Of a DNA stretch of 64,000 bases, positions 44,750 to 52,467 are shown piece after piece. Each line of letters starts with the position of its first letter. Position 1 is the stretch's first letter. This DNA comes from Opitutaceae bacterium EW11 (GTDB lineage Bacteria > Verrucomicrobiota > Verrucomicrobiia > Opitutales > Opitutaceae). Made by a program: the position numbers and the translations under genes. The notes beneath the pieces are model-generated. The model had not been told where the DNA came from, ran no database searches, and saw nothing but the letters and a program-made list of their open reading frames with translations. The stretch is taken from positions 62,001 through 126,000 of the forward strand of contig QAYY01000009.1 in assembly GCA_003054665.1 (NCBI GenBank), given 5' to 3'.

Positions 44750-44827
44750 GGCGGCCATAGCTCAGCTGGTTAGAGCACAAGATTGTGGATCTTGGGGTCG
44801 CGGGTTCGAACCCCGTTGGCCGCCCCA
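44750..44827 (+). tRNA. tRNA-His (anticodon GTG)
   Basis: A complete cloverleaf: GCGGCCA pairs with TGGCCGC; an extra 5' G at 44750 can pair with C73 (44824), the identity element of tRNA-His. Anticodon stem CAAGA/TCTTG encloses TTGTGGA, T-arm GGTTCGAACCC, and CCA is encoded. Confidence 0.97.
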
Positions 44828-45207: not shown

Positions 45208-45981
45208 TCACGGCGTGGCCTGGCGGATTTCTTCGGCGAAGTCGGCCAGTTCGACGGCGGGAATCTCCGAAACAGCGAGGAAATTGAACGAACCGTCTGT
45301 CCAGGAGACGACGTTGTAGCCGTCGCGCTCTCGCGTAACCGGCGGCGCCGCTTCGCGACGGGCGGGCCAGATGAAGAGGTTGATCGCATGCTGCCGCCGA
45401 CGGTAGACGAGCGCCGCCGCATCTTGTCCGGCCACGCGCTCGAGCCGACCGCCGACGAGCGGGAAACCCACTCCGGCGAGGTCCGTCACGGGCGGCGAAA
45501 ACGCGAGCTTGCCGGCGAACCATGGCTTCACCGTGTGCTGATCGGTCGAAGCCACGTCCATGAGATGGTTGGCCTGGAGTGAGCGCACGTGGTCGCTGAC
45601 CGCCTCGTCCACCAGCGCCTGGGTCCGCACCCGACTGCCGCCCCACGTGTAGCCGACGAACAGAGCCATCGCCAAAGACGCGGCGAGTCCAGTGACACGC
45701 CAGAGTGGAAAGACGTCCGCGCGTTTTGACTGGGATGCAGACGTACGAACGGGCGCACCTTCGTTTCGGAGGGCCGAACGCACTTTCTCCGCGAGTGCGG
45801 GTGGCGCCGTGAAACGCGGCAGCGCGGTCTGCAGGGCCGTGCGGCGTGCGTGGATACCTTCGACGGCCCGCGCACAAAGAGGGCACCTTCCGAGGTGTTC
45901 CTCCACCGCGAGTTGGTGGGCAACATCCAATTCACCGTCGGTCGCGGCCTCGAGCAGCCGCCGGATTTCGTTACAGTCCAT
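45208..45981 (-). CDS. Zinc-finger anti-sigma factor
   Basis: The 257-residue protein begins with the ZAS domain: the H-x3-C-x2-C motif is in VEEHLGRCPLC around residues 28-38, which holds zinc and clamps the sigma factor. A membrane helix follows at about 95-115 (VTGLAASLAMALFVGYTWGG). The remainder is periplasmic, about 140 residues, the probable sensor. It overlaps the sigma gene's end by 11 bases, so the two are co-translated. Confidence 0.93.
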   Translation of the reverse strand: MDCNEIRRLLEAATDGELDVAHQLAVEEHLGRCPLCARAVEGIHARRTALQTALPRFTAPPALAEKVRSALRNEGAPVRTSASQSKRADVFPLWRVTGLAASLAMALFVGYTWGGSRVRTQALVDEAVSDHVRSLQANHLMDVASTDQHTVKPWFAGKLAFSPPVTDLAGVGFPLVGGRLERVAGQDAAALVYRRRQHAINLFIWPARREAAPPVTRERDGYNVVSWTDGSFNFLAVSEIPAVELADFAEEIRQATP

Positions 45982-46516
45982 GAGTCGTCTCCTTGCGTGC
46001 GAGCGCCTGCAGCTCCGTCTGCAACTTCCGCCGAGCGCGGGCCAATCGCGACATGACGGTGCCGATGGGAATGTCGCTCACCAGGGCGATTTCGCGATAT
46101 GCGAGCCCTTCGATTTCGTGCAGCACGATGACTTCGCGGAATTCGGGTGCGAGTTTGTCGAGTGCGAGTTGCAGCTGGGCCGCTTTGGTTTCACGCCACA
46201 CAAGCGCGTTGACCTCGCCCGGATCGAACGTGCTGCCGTGGAGATCGTCCTCAAACACTTCCCGCACGACGGAAGGATGATTCCGGCGCAACTGGGTAAA
46301 GCAGACATTGCGCACGATCGTAAGAAGCCAGGCCCGGCCGTCACCGCCGCGAAAGCGACCGAACGCCCGATATGCCCTTAGGAATGCTTCCTGCACCGCG
46401 TCCTCCGCGTCCTGCTCGTGACGGAGCAGCCAGCGCGCGAGATTATAGGCGGCATCCAGATGAGGCAGCATGGCTTGCTCGAAAGACGGCGGCTCGTTGG
46501 GCACGGAGGCTTCCAT
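45971..46516 (-). CDS. ECF RNA polymerase sigma factor
   Basis: Start placed at the ATG giving MEASVPNEPPSFEQAMLPHL (181 residues). Region 2 holds AYNLARWLLRHEQDAEDAVQEAFLRAYRAFGRF and GRAWLLTIVRNVCFTQLRR; region 4 holds LDKLAPEFREVIVLHEIEGLAYREIA and IPIGTVMSRLARARRKLQ. Regions 1 and 3 are absent, the definition of an extracytoplasmic-function sigma. Its cognate anti-sigma follows. A matching promoter-like element stands directly before its start and another before the divergent operon. Confidence 0.95.
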   Translation of the reverse strand: MEASVPNEPPSFEQAMLPHLDAAYNLARWLLRHEQDAEDAVQEAFLRAYRAFGRFRGGDGRAWLLTIVRNVCFTQLRRNHPSVVREVFEDDLHGSTFDPGEVNALVWRETKAAQLQLALDKLAPEFREVIVLHEIEGLAYREIALVSDIPIGTVMSRLARARRKLQTELQALARKETTHGL

Positions 46517-46523
46517 CTCGAAT

Positions 46524-46551
46524 GATACGCGGGGCGACGCGGATTTATTCC
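46524..46551 (-). promoter_or_regulatory. ECF-type promoter before the sigma gene
   Basis: On the minus strand GGAATAA (46551-46545) is followed after 15 bases by CGTATC (46529-46524). Transcription would start about at the sigma start codon, so the mRNA would be leaderless or nearly so. Confidence 0.65.
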
Positions 46552-46587
46552 CGGCAAAGCGGAAAAACCGTCGGGGGGAGGAACGGC

Positions 46588-46616
46588 GGAATAATCGGGG
46601 GGATGCTCGCGTACTC
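46588..46616 (+). promoter_or_regulatory. ECF-type promoter before the phosphoesterase operon
   Basis: GGAATAA (46588-46594), a 15-base spacer and CGTACTC (46610-46616) match the minus-strand element in sequence and spacing. The predicted start is near 46622, about 38 bases before the phosphoesterase ATG. Confidence 0.65.
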
Positions 46617-46659: not shown

Positions 46660-47631
46660 ATGAACAACCACATCATCCACGATCCCAGCAACGACGGCAT
46701 CGACCGGCGCGGTTTTCTCACCTGCATGGCTTGGGCCGGCACCGGCGTGCTTTGGACGCTTGCTGGCGGCGTGCTCAGCTCCCGCGCGCTGGGTCAGGTT
46801 TCCACCAGCGCTGCCAACCTGCCAGCGGCGCCTGGCACTTTGCACTTCGTGCAGATCAGCGACAGTCACATCGGTTTCAACAAGGCCGCGAACACCGACG
46901 TCGCGGGTACCTTTCGCGAGACGATCGCCCGGATCAACGCGCTGCCCACGGCGCCTGAGTTCCTGTTGCACACGGGAGACCTTACTCATCTCGCCGAGGC
47001 GGAGGAATTCGACACGCTCGAGCAGCTCTTGCAGGGCTGCCGCACCAAGCAGGTGTTCTACGTGCCGGGCGAACACGACATTCTGAACGACGACGGCGCG
47101 CAGTATCGCGAGAGATTCGGCAAGGGCACACGCGGCTCGGGCTGGTTCAGCTTCGATCAAAAAGGCGTGCACTTCGTCGGACTCGTAAACGTGCAGGGCG
47201 TAAGCGACGGCGGGCTGGGCGTGCTGGGCACAGAGCAACTCGACTGGTTGCAGAAGGACCTCTCACCGCTGTCCGCCGACACGCCCGTCGTGATCTTCGC
47301 GCACGTCCCGCTCTGGACGGTGTATCCAAAATGGGGATGGGGCACGGACGACGGCGCGAAGGCTCTCTCTCTGCTCAAGCGCTTTGGCTCCGTCACCGTC
47401 CTCAACGGCCACATCCATCAGGCTCTGCAAAAAGTGGAGGGCAATATCACGTTCCACACCGCCCGATCGACGGCGTTCCCGCAACCGGCCCCGGGAAGCG
47501 CGCCGAAACCGGGTCCGATGACCGTGGACGCTCCGCGGCTGAAATCTTTCCTGGGACTGACCAGCGTGTCGTATGTGGAGAATCATCCCACGCTGGCGGT
47601 CGTCGATTCGACGCTCGCGACGGGAGGGTGA
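46660..47631 (+). CDS. Tat-exported metallophosphoesterase
   Basis: Start at ATG 46660 (MNNHIIHDPSNDGIDRRGFL), 323 residues; the open frame runs further upstream through the promoter. DRRGFLTCMAWAG is a twin-arginine signal. The calcineurin-like metal motifs appear in order: SDSHIG, HTGDLTH, GEHD (usually GNHD), FAHVPLW and NGHIHQ. It should be a periplasmic phosphodiesterase or phosphatase with two metals. It starts the sigma-controlled operon; DUF2231 and a cytochrome c follow. Confidence 0.94.
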   Translation: MNNHIIHDPSNDGIDRRGFLTCMAWAGTGVLWTLAGGVLSSRALGQVSTSAANLPAAPGTLHFVQISDSHIGFNKAANTDVAGTFRETIARINALPTAPEFLLHTGDLTHLAEAEEFDTLEQLLQGCRTKQVFYVPGEHDILNDDGAQYRERFGKGTRGSGWFSFDQKGVHFVGLVNVQGVSDGGLGVLGTEQLDWLQKDLSPLSADTPVVIFAHVPLWTVYPKWGWGTDDGAKALSLLKRFGSVTVLNGHIHQALQKVEGNITFHTARSTAFPQPAPGSAPKPGPMTVDAPRLKSFLGLTSVSYVENHPTLAVVDSTLATGG

Positions 47632-47635
47632 ACCC

Positions 47636-48076
47636 ATGGATCAGACGCTGTGGAGCAAAGCACATGGTGCAGCCACGCATTTTCCGATCGCGCTCGTGGC
47701 CTGCTCGGCCGCGCTTGACACCGTCGGGTGGTTCCGAGCGGGACGACCGTTCGCCGGCGACCTGCATGCCGTCGGGTATTGGACGATTCTATTTGGAGCG
47801 GCGGGGAGCGTTCCAGCGGTGATTTCAGGAGTGCTGATGACCAAGGGCAGCGTGCTCGGCCACGGCCTGCTGCGCCTTCACCACCTGTTCGTCTGGCCCG
47901 CATTCGGGCTGTTGATCGCGATCGCTACGTGGCGGGCGCTCGTCGGCCGGCATCCCGCGCGTCGCCTGTTGGCCGGTTACCTTTGTGGCGTCGCCGCTAT
48001 GCTGACGCTGCTGATCATCGCCGCGTATTGGGGTGGAGAACTGTTGCTTGCGACCGCAATCGAGCCGGGGCCATGA
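47636..48076 (+). CDS. DUF2231 membrane protein
   Basis: The 146-residue protein (MDQTLWSKAHGAATHFPIAL) has four predicted membrane helices with the conserved HFPIALV start. A good Shine-Dalgarno (GGAGG) stands before its ATG, four bases after the preceding stop. Its TGA overlaps the next ATG. DUF2231 members are often next to cytochromes or oxidoreductases and may be haem-containing, but the function is unknown. Confidence 0.88.
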   Translation: MDQTLWSKAHGAATHFPIALVACSAALDTVGWFRAGRPFAGDLHAVGYWTILFGAAGSVPAVISGVLMTKGSVLGHGLLRLHHLFVWPAFGLLIAIATWRALVGRHPARRLLAGYLCGVAAMLTLLIIAAYWGGELLLATAIEPGP

Positions 48077-48486
48077 CGTCCCGTTCCGCCACCTCGATCG
48101 CGCTGCTGGCTGGGCTCCTTGCGGTCTCCTCCGCGCTGGGCGGCGCGCATTTGGTCCGGCAACACGCGATGCACGCGTCGCACCAAACGCCGACCCCCGA
48201 ACGGTGGCTCGAGCCCGTGACATCAACCTCGCCGCAACGCGTCGCCCAAGGCCGAAAGACGTTTCTCCAGAGATGCGCCCATTGCCACGGCGTCGACGCC
48301 CGCGGCGATGAAGGGCCAGATCTGCACGATCTTCAGGTCAGCGACCGCTACATCGCGAACACCGTCCTCCGCGGCATTCCTCACGAAATGCCCTCGTTCG
48401 CGCGGAAGCTGCAGGGCGATGATATCGCCGCCCTCACCGCGTACCTGCGTTCACTCGAGCACGAAGCGGACCGCAGCGATCCGTGA
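48073..48486 (+). CDS. Small monohaem cytochrome c
   Basis: The 137-residue protein starts MTSRSATSIALLAGLLAVSS (signal or anchor) by ATGA overlap with DUF2231. One haem attachment site, CAHCH, and a possible Met ligand in EMPSFARKL are visible; the fold is cytochrome c class I. It is likely the electron carrier of the sigma-controlled unit, perhaps accepting electrons from the DUF2231 protein. Confidence 0.9.
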   Translation: MTSRSATSIALLAGLLAVSSALGGAHLVRQHAMHASHQTPTPERWLEPVTSTSPQRVAQGRKTFLQRCAHCHGVDARGDEGPDLHDLQVSDRYIANTVLRGIPHEMPSFARKLQGDDIAALTAYLRSLEHEADRSDP

Positions 48487-48821: not shown

Positions 48822-50228
48822 ATGAAACTACCCCGGTTCGAGGCTGCAGTCAGACACGCGGCGGCAACGCTCGCTCTCCTCGCCCTGTCGCACCAGCTCC
48901 GCGCGACCAACGGAATGAACATGGAGGGCTACGGCCCTGTTGCGACCGCGCTGGGCGGCGCCTCGATGGCCTACGACAACGGCACCGCTGGCGTGATCAA
49001 CAATCCCGCGACGCTCTCGCTCATGCCGTCCGCCGACCGACTCGACCTCGCACTGGGCGTACTCGGCCCACAAATCACGGCTGCCGCCCCTAACGGCGCT
49101 TCGGCCAAATCCCAGTCGACGACGTTTTTCATGCCGGCCTTTGGTTACGCCAGAAAGGCGGGGAACATCGTCTACGGTCTGGGAGTGTTCGGTCAGGGCG
49201 GGATGGGTTGCGAATACGACAAGGATACATGGCGCGGGCTCGGCTTCGGGCTGGAGAACCGCACGGAAGTCTCGGTCGGCCGCGTCATTCTTCCCGTTTC
49301 TTACCGGGTCAACGACCAGCTAAGCGTCGCCGCGACGCTCGACTACGTCTGGGCCGGAATGGATCTCAAGATGGCGATGTCCGGAGCGCAGTTTACCGAT
49401 CTGCTCAGCACGCATCAAATCGGCCAGGCATCGGGGAGTATCGTGCAGAGCTTCGGCCAGATCATGGCGTCGATGCCGGCCGGTACTTCGGTCGACTACG
49501 CCTACTTCGACTTTTCCAACAGCTCCGACTTCACCGGGGAAGCCAGCGGGAAAGGTTATGCCGGCAAGGTCGGCATCGTCTACACTCCTCAGCCGGGGCT
49601 CGCCTTTGGCCTGACGTACCATTCGAAGACGCGGCTCGACGATCTCGAGGCACCGGGCAACAGCATCCGTTTCCAGATGAATGTCCCCGGCATGGGCCGC
49701 GTTCCGCAGACGCTCGCGGGCGACATCACGGTGCGAGACTTCGAATGGCCGGCGATGCTCGGCGGCGGAGTCGCCTGGCAGCCCAACGACCGGTGGCTGC
49801 TCGTCGCCGACATTCGCAGGGTGTTCTGGGCCGACGTGATGAAGAACTTCAACCTCGCGTTTGTCGCCTCAAGCGCCACCGCGAACGGTCCTTTTGCCGG
49901 CCAACGGCTCGATGCACAACTCTACCAGAACTGGGACGATCAGACCGTCATCCAGGTTGGCGCCGCATACCGCCTGAGCGGTAACCTGACGGTTCGCGCC
50001 GGTTTCAATCACGGCAACGATCCCATCCCGGACCGCTACCTCAACTGCCTCTTTCCCGCCACGGTGGAGACTCATCTCACGATCGGCTGCGGATACGCGC
50101 TCGGCGAACACGGAAGCATCGAGTTCTCCTATACACACGGTTTCGAGCACAGCGTCACCAACGGAGGCGGCGTCCGCGTCAGCCACTCTCAAAACAATGC
50201 CCAGCTGATGTACGCGCTGCGGTTCTAG
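48822..50228 (+). CDS. FadL/OmpP1 family outer-membrane channel
   Basis: The 468-residue protein has a signal peptide (about residues 1-29, cut near LRA), then TNGMNMEGYGPVATALGGASMAYDNG, the N-terminal hatch typical of FadL, where hydrophobic compounds are bound before passage. The rest is beta-strand rich and ends in Phe (MYALRF), as outer-membrane barrels do. It precedes the molybdoenzyme genes by 34 bases, so it is probably co-transcribed and may import a hydrophobic sulfur compound or elemental sulfur; this is inference. Confidence 0.9.
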   Translation: MKLPRFEAAVRHAAATLALLALSHQLRATNGMNMEGYGPVATALGGASMAYDNGTAGVINNPATLSLMPSADRLDLALGVLGPQITAAAPNGASAKSQSTTFFMPAFGYARKAGNIVYGLGVFGQGGMGCEYDKDTWRGLGFGLENRTEVSVGRVILPVSYRVNDQLSVAATLDYVWAGMDLKMAMSGAQFTDLLSTHQIGQASGSIVQSFGQIMASMPAGTSVDYAYFDFSNSSDFTGEASGKGYAGKVGIVYTPQPGLAFGLTYHSKTRLDDLEAPGNSIRFQMNVPGMGRVPQTLAGDITVRDFEWPAMLGGGVAWQPNDRWLLVADIRRVFWADVMKNFNLAFVASSATANGPFAGQRLDAQLYQNWDDQTVIQVGAAYRLSGNLTVRAGFNHGNDPIPDRYLNCLFPATVETHLTIGCGYALGEHGSIEFSYTHGFEHSVTNGGGVRVSHSQNNAQLMYALRF

Positions 50229-50262: not shown

Positions 50263-52467
50263 ATGCCCGATCTTTCCCGACGCCGCTTTCTCCGAATCTC
50301 CGCCGCCTCGGTGCTCGCGGCCGGCCTCGCGGGCCGTGCGACTTCGGCGTTCGCGGGTTGGAGCGAAGGCTCAGCCGCCGCCAAGGGCGGCGTGCGCACC
50401 GTACCGACTTTCTGCGACATTTGTTTCTGGAAATGCGGCGCGATCGCTCATGTCCGGGACGGCAAGCTCTGGAAGATCGAAGGCAATCCCGAGGATCCGC
50501 TCAGCCGCGGCCGGCTTTGTCCTCGCGGCACGGGCGGAGTAGGCGCGCACTCCGATCCCGATCGTCTCCGGACTCCGCTGATCCGCGTCTCCGAACGCGG
50601 CCAGGACAAATGGAAGTCCGTAACCTGGGAGGAGGCACTTGAGTATCTCGCCTCGCGGATGGCGAAGATCAAAGCGGACTACGGGCCGGAATCGATGGCA
50701 CTCTTCAGCCACGGAATCGGCGGCACCTTTCTCCGGCACCTCATGAAGGCCTACGGCACGCCCAACATCGCGGCGCCTTCTTTCGCGCAGTGCCGTGGGC
50801 CGCGCGACGTCGGGTTCCGCCTCACCTTTGGCGACGACATCGGCTCTCCGGAGCGCACCGACATCGCGAACACGGAGTGCCTGGTGCTGATCGGCTCGCA
50901 TCTCGGCGAAAACATGCACAACACGCAGGTGCAGGAATTCGCCGAAGCGGTCGGTCGCGGAGCGACGATCATCGTCGCCGATCCCCGCTTCTCGGTGGCC
51001 GCCAGCAAGGCGAAACACTATCTGCCGATCAAACCAGGGACCGATCTTGCGCTGTTGCTCGCGTGGATGCAGGTGATCGTCACGGAAAAGCTCTACGACG
51101 CGGATTATGTCGCGAAATACGGCTTCGGCTTCGACGCATTCGCCGCATCGCTGACCGGCTACACGCCCGAGTGGGCATTCACCGAAACGGGAATCGATCC
51201 CGAGACGATCCGGACTACGGCCAGGGAAATGGCCAAACACCGTCCCGCGACGCTCGTCCATCCGGGGCGGCACACGAACTGGTACGGCGACGACACGCAG
51301 CGGAGCCGTGCCGTGGCTCTGCTCAACGCTCTCCTGGGAAGCTGGGGGCGCAAAGGTGGGTTCTACCAGCCATCGAGCATGGACGTGCCGGCATACCCAT
51401 GTCCCGACTACCCGAAGCCCGCCCGTCCCAAGCTCGACAATCCAGGCAAGCGGTATCCGTTCGCCCACGAGGGCCTCACGACGGGCATCCGCGAGGCAAC
51501 CATCACGGGAAAACCCTACCCGATAAAGGGCTGGATGGTGTATGCCACCAACCTGATTAGCGCGCTTCCGAACGAAGCCGAAACGATTCGCGCCATCCAG
51601 GCGCTCGATTTGCTCGTGGTGGTCGACGTCGCTCCAAGCGAGATCGCGGGCTGGGCCGACGTCGTTCTGCCCGAATCCGTGTATTTGGAAAGGTATGACG
51701 AACTCAACCCGGAGCTCTTCCGGGATCCCTTCATTGCCCTTCGCCAACCGGTGGTCGACGCCCCCGACGACCAGAAGCCCAACTGGTGGATCGCCAAACG
51801 GCTGGCGGAGAAGCTCGGCCTGGATACGTACTTCCCCTGGAGCAATATCGAAAGCTACCTCGATACCCGGCTGAAGGGCGCCGGCTACAGCCTGGCCGAA
51901 TTGAAGCGACGCGGCATCGTCCGCGGACCGCGCCAGCCGCTCTATTTCGAAGATGGAGCGTCCGCGGAGTTTGAAACTCCCTCCCGAAAGATAGAATTCT
52001 ACTCCACCCAGCTCGAGAAGGCCGGTTTCGATCCTGTCCCGCGGTACACTCCGCCCGAGGGCGGCCCAGCGGGATCGTTCCGACTGCTTTTCGGCCGCGC
52101 GCCGATGCACACCTTTGGTCGAACGCAGACGAATCGCCTGCTTTCCGACTTGATGGACGAAAACGCTGTCTGGCTCAACGCGACCGCCGCGCTCCGGCTG
52201 GGCCTCAAGACGGGCGACTACGTGCGGCTCAAGAACCAGGACGGCGCGGTGAGCGAGCGCGTGCAGGTCAAGGCGACGCAGCGGATCCGACCCGATTGCG
52301 TGTACCTCGTGCATGGTTTCGGCCACACCGCCAAGGGTCTCCGCCGCGCTTACCGCAAAGGCGCGAGCGACTCCGGCCTGATCACTCGCTACAAGACGGA
52401 TCCGCTGATGGGCGGAACAGGAATGAACGTGAACTTCGTCACCCTCGAACCCGTGGAGGGCGCCTGA
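50263..52467 (+). CDS. Psr/Phs-type molybdopterin oxidoreductase, catalytic subunit
   Basis: The 734-residue enzyme has a Tat signal (SRRRFLRIS, residues 5-13), an N-terminal [4Fe-4S] site (C51, C54, C58, C86) and molybdopterin-guanine-dinucleotide domains. C177, in FAQCRGPRD, is the probable molybdenum ligand, as in polysulfide, thiosulfate and arsenite-type enzymes of this class. PsrA and PhsA reduce polysulfide or thiosulfate; the direction and substrate here are unproven. Subunits B and C follow. Confidence 0.93.
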   Translation: MPDLSRRRFLRISAASVLAAGLAGRATSAFAGWSEGSAAAKGGVRTVPTFCDICFWKCGAIAHVRDGKLWKIEGNPEDPLSRGRLCPRGTGGVGAHSDPDRLRTPLIRVSERGQDKWKSVTWEEALEYLASRMAKIKADYGPESMALFSHGIGGTFLRHLMKAYGTPNIAAPSFAQCRGPRDVGFRLTFGDDIGSPERTDIANTECLVLIGSHLGENMHNTQVQEFAEAVGRGATIIVADPRFSVAASKAKHYLPIKPGTDLALLLAWMQVIVTEKLYDADYVAKYGFGFDAFAASLTGYTPEWAFTETGIDPETIRTTAREMAKHRPATLVHPGRHTNWYGDDTQRSRAVALLNALLGSWGRKGGFYQPSSMDVPAYPCPDYPKPARPKLDNPGKRYPFAHEGLTTGIREATITGKPYPIKGWMVYATNLISALPNEAETIRAIQALDLLVVVDVAPSEIAGWADVVLPESVYLERYDELNPELFRDPFIALRQPVVDAPDDQKPNWWIAKRLAEKLGLDTYFPWSNIESYLDTRLKGAGYSLAELKRRGIVRGPRQPLYFEDGASAEFETPSRKIEFYSTQLEKAGFDPVPRYTPPEGGPAGSFRLLFGRAPMHTFGRTQTNRLLSDLMDENAVWLNATAALRLGLKTGDYVRLKNQDGAVSERVQVKATQRIRPDCVYLVHGFGHTAKGLRRAYRKGASDSGLITRYKTDPLMGGTGMNVNFVTLEPVEGA

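Follow-up and report, generated by a model that had tools for sequence, protein, structure and literature searches.

A predicted pair of divergent ECF26-like promoters between a sigma/anti-sigma pair and a phosphoesterase operon in an Opitutaceae bacterium

In Opitutaceae bacterium EW11, an intergenic gap of 143 bases separates two divergent sets of genes and carries nearly the same promoter-like sequence on both strands, which raises the question of whether one sigma factor could serve both sides, and in what kind of response. The window (i.e., the whole 64-kb stretch of DNA that was analysed) contains, on the reverse strand, the gene of an ECF sigma factor of 181 amino acids (45971..46516; Pfam Sigma70_r2 and Sigma70_r4_2), which overlaps by 11 bases the gene of an anti-sigma factor of 257 amino acids (45208..45981; zf-HC2 at residues 3-36, Pfam E 7.7e-7). 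On the forward strand follow an exported metallophosphoesterase of 323 amino acids (46660..47631; Pfam Metallophos), a DUF2231 membrane protein of 146 amino acids (47636..48076; Pfam) and a small single-heme cytochrome c of 137 amino acids with an N-terminal hydrophobic stretch (48073..48486; Pfam), whose gene overlaps that of the DUF2231 protein by 4 bases. Because of these overlaps, each arm resembles one operon. The Pfam matches agree with the gene identities given in the original prediction for all five proteins.

The promoter pair and the apparent regulon

The gap lies between the sigma ATG, which ends at 46516 on the reverse strand, and the phosphoesterase ATG, which starts at 46660 on the forward strand. 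A pattern scan and the gaps of relatives place the sigma promoter at 46551-46545 (-35 box GGAATAA, reverse strand) and 46529-46524 (-10 hexamer CGTATC), with a spacer of 15 bases and 7 bases to the sigma ATG. The promoter of the phosphoesterase operon is placed in the same way at 46588-46594 (GGAATAA, forward strand) and 46610-46615 (CGTACT), also with a spacer of 15 bases, at 44 bases from the ATG. The arrangement originally described, with one copy per strand and each aimed at its own gene, was thus found, and the left end of the proposed span (46524-46616) is correct, while its right end lies one base too far (46615). Whole-genome counts and shuffled controls led us to reject a chance motif pair, as had been anticipated. 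GGAATAA-N15-CGTA has two matches in the 64-kb window and none in 100 shuffles, and in the whole genome (6,396,474 bases in 45 contigs) the only two exact matches are those in this gap, with no match in the reversed control. Two outward-facing promoters of this kind probably let a stress-response sigma factor switch on both itself and the genes of an exported enzyme and of electron carriers.

With a looser pattern, GGAATAW-N15-SGTM, seven matches were found in the genome (one in the reversed control), i.e., this pair and five others. These five would fit a sigma factor whose regulon is large and scattered over the genome under a weaker consensus, so that the phosphoesterase operon would be one target of many, and since the -10 element of relatives is variable (CGT, GGT, AGT), weak sites could escape the search. 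However, four of the five (L075, L076, L077 and L079) sit within long open frames, two of which are clearly genes in our own reading (dnaN in L076 and a TonB-type receptor in L079), and the fifth (L078), which is outside any long gene, adjoins a TetR-like gene but is oriented away from it. In addition, S. meliloti ECF sigma factors except RpoE2 have mostly small target sets, according to the excerpt of the study of that species (PMC6180224). The pattern search in the own genome thus gave no support to a large regulon, which we consider quite unlikely. In the five related genomes with the phosphoesterase, GGAATAA-N14/15-CGTA has six matches, five of them at this locus (in four of the five genomes), and none in the remaining genome, G017. 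As judged from these motif counts, the regulon looks very small, essentially this one locus. With so small an apparent regulon and so clearly delimited a promoter pair, the signal could be sought with a reporter.

Conservation of the promoters in relatives

The original prediction depended on conservation of the motif where relatives keep the gene order, and this was observed: 18 of the 20 divergent loci (19 including the window, and L073) have it on one or both sides when 260 bases upstream of the homologues are scanned with GGAAT-NN-N14..16-(A/C/G)GT. The scan pattern is absent in L055 and L073, where -35-like sequences are kept with no clear -10 in register, and L007 and L037 deviate on the phosphoesterase side. 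In 16 of the 20 loci, counting the uncertain sigma sides of L045 and L046, both arms have a box, and when the gaps are aligned the divergent pair can be recognised by eye. This general motif was settled partly after viewing the loci in those aligned gaps; among 23 phosphoesterase loci that had not been displayed before the pattern was chosen, it occurs in ten, including seven of the eight that hold a sigma gene.

A stricter form counted afterwards, GGAATA-N17-GTA/C, is present on the phosphoesterase side in 7 of the 10 closest loci (L003-L008, L033-L035 and L037) and in 17 of 31 others, and on the sigma side in only 6 of the 10 closest and 7 of 21 others. Shuffle means for these four sets range from 0.010 to 0.028 (on the phosphoesterase side, 0.010 for the closest 10 and 0.024 for the other 31), and the reversed sequence gave 0 in all of them. 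L064, which has no upstream sequence, was left out of this count, and L036, which has the same gap as L005, was left out of this count, of the sigma, DUF2231 and cytochrome c alignments and of the letter counts given below. For the 31 others, the motif stands before the phosphoesterase in 14 of the 16 loci where tblastn detects a sigma homologue (E up to 1e-5) and in 3 of the 15 where it does not (Fisher p 2.4e-4). This contrast is partly phylogenetic and partly due to coverage, as the set without a homologue comprises, among others, the Actinobacteria, loci on short contigs (L042, for example) and L071, in whose record a sigma gene is annotated that is too distant for a match at this cut-off. 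The loci are not phylogenetically independent, and L050 and L051 are nearly alike.

In the 38 promoters with the N15 register, the sixth base is invariably A, although the scan pattern left it free. A occupies the first spacer position in 13 of 14 sigma-side promoters (1.6 bits), while the remaining spacer positions reach at most 0.7 bits on both sides, and the -10 element tends towards CGTCTT on the sigma side and GGTATT on the phosphoesterase side. The sigma sides of L045 and L046, where the start codon is uncertain, were left out of these letter counts and kept in the motif counts.

The two boxes of each gap form an inverted repeat, and the distance between them is 35 bases in eight loci (L004, L005, L008, L033-L036 and L048) and 36 in the window, as might be expected if the GGAATAA boxes were the binding site of a divergent repressor or activator rather than sigma promoters. 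This is very improbable, given that the distance varies in the eight other loci measured (22 to 53, and 132 and 704), that the conserved unit includes a GT at a constant distance from each box, on the side that faces the gene, that this unit resembles mapped ECF26 promoters, and that it is single in non-divergent loci (L050-L054 and L056). Five of the latter (L050-L053 and L056) carry the phosphoesterase, sigma and anti-sigma genes in this order on one strand, with a single box, which precedes the phosphoesterase and not the sigma gene, so that autoregulation would persist by read-through. Since the divergent and the same-strand designs would both make the sigma factor autoregulated, promoter function is favoured over a chance repeat.

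The stretch between the two -35 boxes (46552-46587 in the window, 36 bases) often has an A-tract opposite a T-tract across loci, and is possibly a shared upstream element.

Likeness to ECF26 sigma factors

The original prediction called the promoters ECF type and left the grouping unnamed; the ECF assignment is upheld, and we can add that the type resembles published ECF26 promoters. The cross-species ECF26 consensus, in the excerpt of PMC6180224, consists of GGAATA at -35 and GT at -10, and with a spacer of 14-15 bases it is matched by both promoters of the window. Among the rows listed as far as SMa0139 in the table of that study, we compared seven mapped S. meliloti promoters of the ECF26 type, leaving out SMa0139 and the RpoD- and RpoH-like rows. 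GGAAT is present in five of the seven (the exceptions being SMc02156 and SMc01022) and GGAATA in four, and the spacer, by the same measure, comprises 15 bases in five of them and 14 in the other two. The sigE promoter of Starkeya novella, as far as the excerpted source describes it, does not have the ECF26 consensus.

The sigma factor itself has regions 2 and 4 only, as in ECF26, and shares 39% identity over 177 columns (tblastn) with S. meliloti RpoE6, encoded on pSymA. The recognition helix GTVMSRL is invariant in all 28 aligned sigma factors, RpoE6 included; L036, L069, and L006 and L067 (the last two having no complete frame) are absent from this alignment. The best NCBIfam sigma model, PRK12533, was not assigned because its score of 203.7 bits is below the cut-off of 248. 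Thus, the sigma factor is best read as ECF26-like, a classification made by promoter, domain make-up and identity. Brucella BcrS was set aside as a comparison, being called ECF16 in its paper.

As in the S. meliloti ECF26 systems (RpoE1, RpoE3, RpoE4 and RpoE6 with EcfR), the sigma gene adjoins that of the anti-sigma factor. Both RpoE1 and RpoE4 are autoregulated according to the excerpted account, and the same is predicted for the sigma factor of the window, although not every ECF26 sigma factor behaves in this way, since RpoE3 is described there as not activating its own operon (PMC6180224). The resemblance of motif and spacing to the mapped S. meliloti promoters supports an ECF26-like autoregulated sigma/anti-sigma switch. 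We estimate a probability of about 0.8 that an ECF26-like, autoregulated sigma factor, held by its anti-sigma factor, drives both arms of a local regulon. At the level of sequence, this supports the interpretation first proposed, i.e., an autoregulated ECF sigma factor with a zinc anti-sigma factor and a phosphoesterase-DUF2231-cytochrome operon under its control.

The S. meliloti promoters also bear on the proposal that the sigma transcript is almost leaderless. As printed in the excerpt of PMC6180224, the seven promoters end 5-8 bases past the hexamer; we read the start site as the final base printed, the bold marking of the table having been lost (for sorT the last base is in lower case, and a footnote states that the start was found by two methods). 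By analogy, the sigma transcript would start at the ATG or within 3 bases of it, with a leader of 0-3 bases. The distance from the -10 hexamer to the sigma ATG is 7 bases in 8 of 18 rows, that of the window included (L003, L004, L005, L008 and L033-L036, i.e., seven distinct gaps, as L005 and L036 share theirs). It is longer in L007 and L037, as well as in the less closely related loci, so that leaderlessness appears to be a trait of the close relatives and not of the system.

The parallel with S. meliloti extends to the targets. In the excerpted accounts, a cytochrome c and a cupredoxin are among the ECF26 targets and echo those found here and in relatives, whereas the window targets are a phosphoesterase, a DUF2231 protein and a cytochrome c where S. 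meliloti has a sulfite dehydrogenase. One could therefore propose a sulfite response as in RpoE4, with the phosphoesterase operon serving in sulfite detoxification. RpoE4, whose promoter type is similar, responds to sulfite-generating compounds and controls sorT-sorU-azu2 (sulfite oxidase/dehydrogenase, cytochrome c and pseudoazurin) according to the excerpted accounts, the products of sorU and azu2 recall the cytochrome c or cupredoxin of this system, and a molybdopterin oxidoreductase gene resembling those of polysulfide or thiosulfate reductases starts at 50263. However, the operon has no sulfite dehydrogenase gene, flanks of about 1.5-5 kb around the system in the relatives searched showed no such molybdoenzyme, and among S. 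meliloti ECF26 sigma factors the excerpted text gives a sulfite response for RpoE1 and RpoE4 only, RpoE3 and RpoE6 being without one. We therefore regard a sulfite response as unlikely, and the RpoE4 parallel for the signal as suggestive, not proof.

The molybdopterin oxidoreductase gene (Pfam) opens a cluster from 50263 to about 55000 which continues, by eye, with iron-sulfur-like, NrfD-like membrane subunit and YeeE/YedE-like genes, and which is suggestive of a polysulfide or thiosulfate reductase combined with sulfur import. Within the same short flanks, the relatives gave no support to a link between this neighbour and the system. Between the cytochrome gene and the molybdoenzyme lies a gene for a FadL/TodX-type outer membrane protein (48822-50228), and this gene, too, did not appear in the flanks of about 1.5-5 kb around the system in relatives.

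Proteins and distribution of the system

The anti-sigma factor is predicted to have one membrane helix followed by a periplasmic domain, i.e., the same order of cytoplasmic domain, membrane helix and periplasmic domain as in EcfR. Its profile matches EcfR6 at the N-terminal part and the helix, with no match for the periplasmic domain. In the own genome the full profile was found at this locus only, four other places matching the N-terminal part weakly. The zinc motif HxxxCxxC of the ZAS family is present (H29, C33 and C36); in an alignment of 17 rows it is absent in the anti-sigma factors of L050 and L051, while H131, H149 and H198 are invariant in all 17.

The predicted model of the anti-sigma factor is good locally (mean pLDDT 86, pTM 0.57). 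The sequence of the N-terminal domain matches that of RsiW (E 2e-7), and its fold matches those of RsiW, MucA and ChrR with Z 7.3-7.5 and rmsd 2-7.5. When compared with Pfam at an E cut-off of 1, residues 119-257 gave no match. Residues 154-257 of the model resemble the C-terminal domain of RseB/MucB with a middling score (Z 8.8, rmsd about 3 angstrom over 95 residues; best Foldseek E 3.6e-3). As Z 8.8 is middling and a differently named Thermotoga protein (1vr8) reaches 8.5, with the next periplasmic-domain rows at about 6, we treat this as a likeness, with common ancestry at most possible. Although middling in score, the match makes functional sense because RseB/MucB itself regulates an anti-sigma factor; RseB/MucB is a separate protein, whereas the similar domain here would be built into the anti-sigma factor.

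The phosphoesterase carries an RR (Tat) signal, RRGFL, read by eye. Metallophosphoesterases bind their metals through a conserved set of residues (D-H, GD, GN-H-D/E, H and GH-H), in which the Asn is a metal ligand. The aligned phosphoesterases depart from this usual GNHD/E form, the motif being GEHD in 23 of 23 rows (E138 in the window); D68, H70, D107, H139, H215, H251 and H253 are also invariant in this alignment. The best PDB sequence matches are Rv0805 and the class III phosphodiesterases 2dxl/2zo9 (presumably GpdQ), with E 6e-11 to 2e-7. These profile matches place the enzyme in the same metallophosphoesterase family, from whose Rv0805-type class III members it differs in carrying an RR export signal. 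Its predicted model is poor (mean pLDDT 66.8). In the operon partners, four histidines of DUF2231 and the CAHCHG motif of the cytochrome c are invariant in 13 of 13 aligned rows each, and DUF2231 with its four invariant histidines possibly binds heme b.

Based on these features, we propose a scheme in which the co-transcribed zinc anti-sigma factor would hold the ECF26-like sigma factor at the membrane until a periplasmic signal acting on its outer domain frees it. The freed sigma factor would recognise GGAATAA-N15-CGTA on both strands of the gap, amplifying its own operon and turning on the phosphoesterase-DUF2231-cytochrome c operon. DUF2231 and cytochrome c may carry electrons, a role that a cupredoxin would fill in other groups, and the system likely serves repair or detoxification in the periplasm, linked to redox chemistry.

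Of the 141 genomes searched, 6 (the own genome among them) contain a close phosphoesterase (E below 1e-150), whose presence is thus patchy among near relatives. A named collection adds 33 phosphoesterase loci, with titles including Verrucomicrobia, Acidobacteria, Bryobacterales, Planctomycetaceae, Gemmatimonadaceae, Alphaproteobacteria, Chloroflexi, Streptomyces and Frankia; single labels may be wrong, since many records are metagenome bins and the Puia and Holophagaceae records are doubtful. Across these 39 neighbourhoods, some on short contigs, homologues of the sigma and anti-sigma factors are near the phosphoesterase in 25, and DUF2231 and cytochrome c follow it in 14 (L003-L008 and L033-L040). 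A plastocyanin-like cupredoxin is a neighbour in L042, L043, L049, L051 and L055. The redox partner genes therefore differ by group, with DUF2231 and cytochrome c in some and a cupredoxin in others.

By record titles, the promoter, sigma factor, anti-sigma factor and phosphoesterase occur together in Verrucomicrobia, Acidobacteria/Terriglobia, Alpha- and Betaproteobacteria, and also in a Planctomycetaceae and a Gemmatimonadaceae bin, a recurrence that suggests a useful response, one without a name in the papers we consulted. Tentatively, the system could be a cross-phylum and probably horizontally spread module composed of an ECF26-like sigma factor, an anti-sigma factor with an RseB-like sensor, a GEHD phosphoesterase and an exchangeable electron carrier. 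If this were the case, the module would represent an unnamed response to periplasmic redox or metal damage, the three invariant anti-sigma histidines would suggest a metal or redox ligand, and the GEHD phosphoesterases would form a distinct subfamily.

Among the matches listed by our literature search (titles and beginnings of abstracts, with few subscription papers), the grouping of sigma factor, phosphoesterase and redox partner is not described, and a metal-response link via Cupriavidus gave nothing in the literature for this gene set. What appears new, with moderate novelty, is the target set of an ECF26-like autoregulated switch, conserved far beyond the window. The system is well conserved and easy to test, and an enzyme assay could reveal the substrate of the phosphoesterase.

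Three further observations concern gene neighbourhoods. A Mycobacteroides plasmid (L071, 1667-4406) is annotated with genes for a sigma factor, a Rieske protein, a cupredoxin and a metallophosphoesterase in one run and in this order, the Rieske protein occupying the place where an anti-sigma factor might be expected. On pBVIE03 of Burkholderia vietnamiensis (L066, 1-4918), a phosphoesterase gene bearing the motif adjoins genes for chromate resistance, a rhodanese and cytochrome c assembly. In the window itself, a tRNA-His gene (44751-44827) is followed by diverged direct repeats of 41 and 63 bases, in which TACACCAAAGTTTGGGGAC occurs twice.
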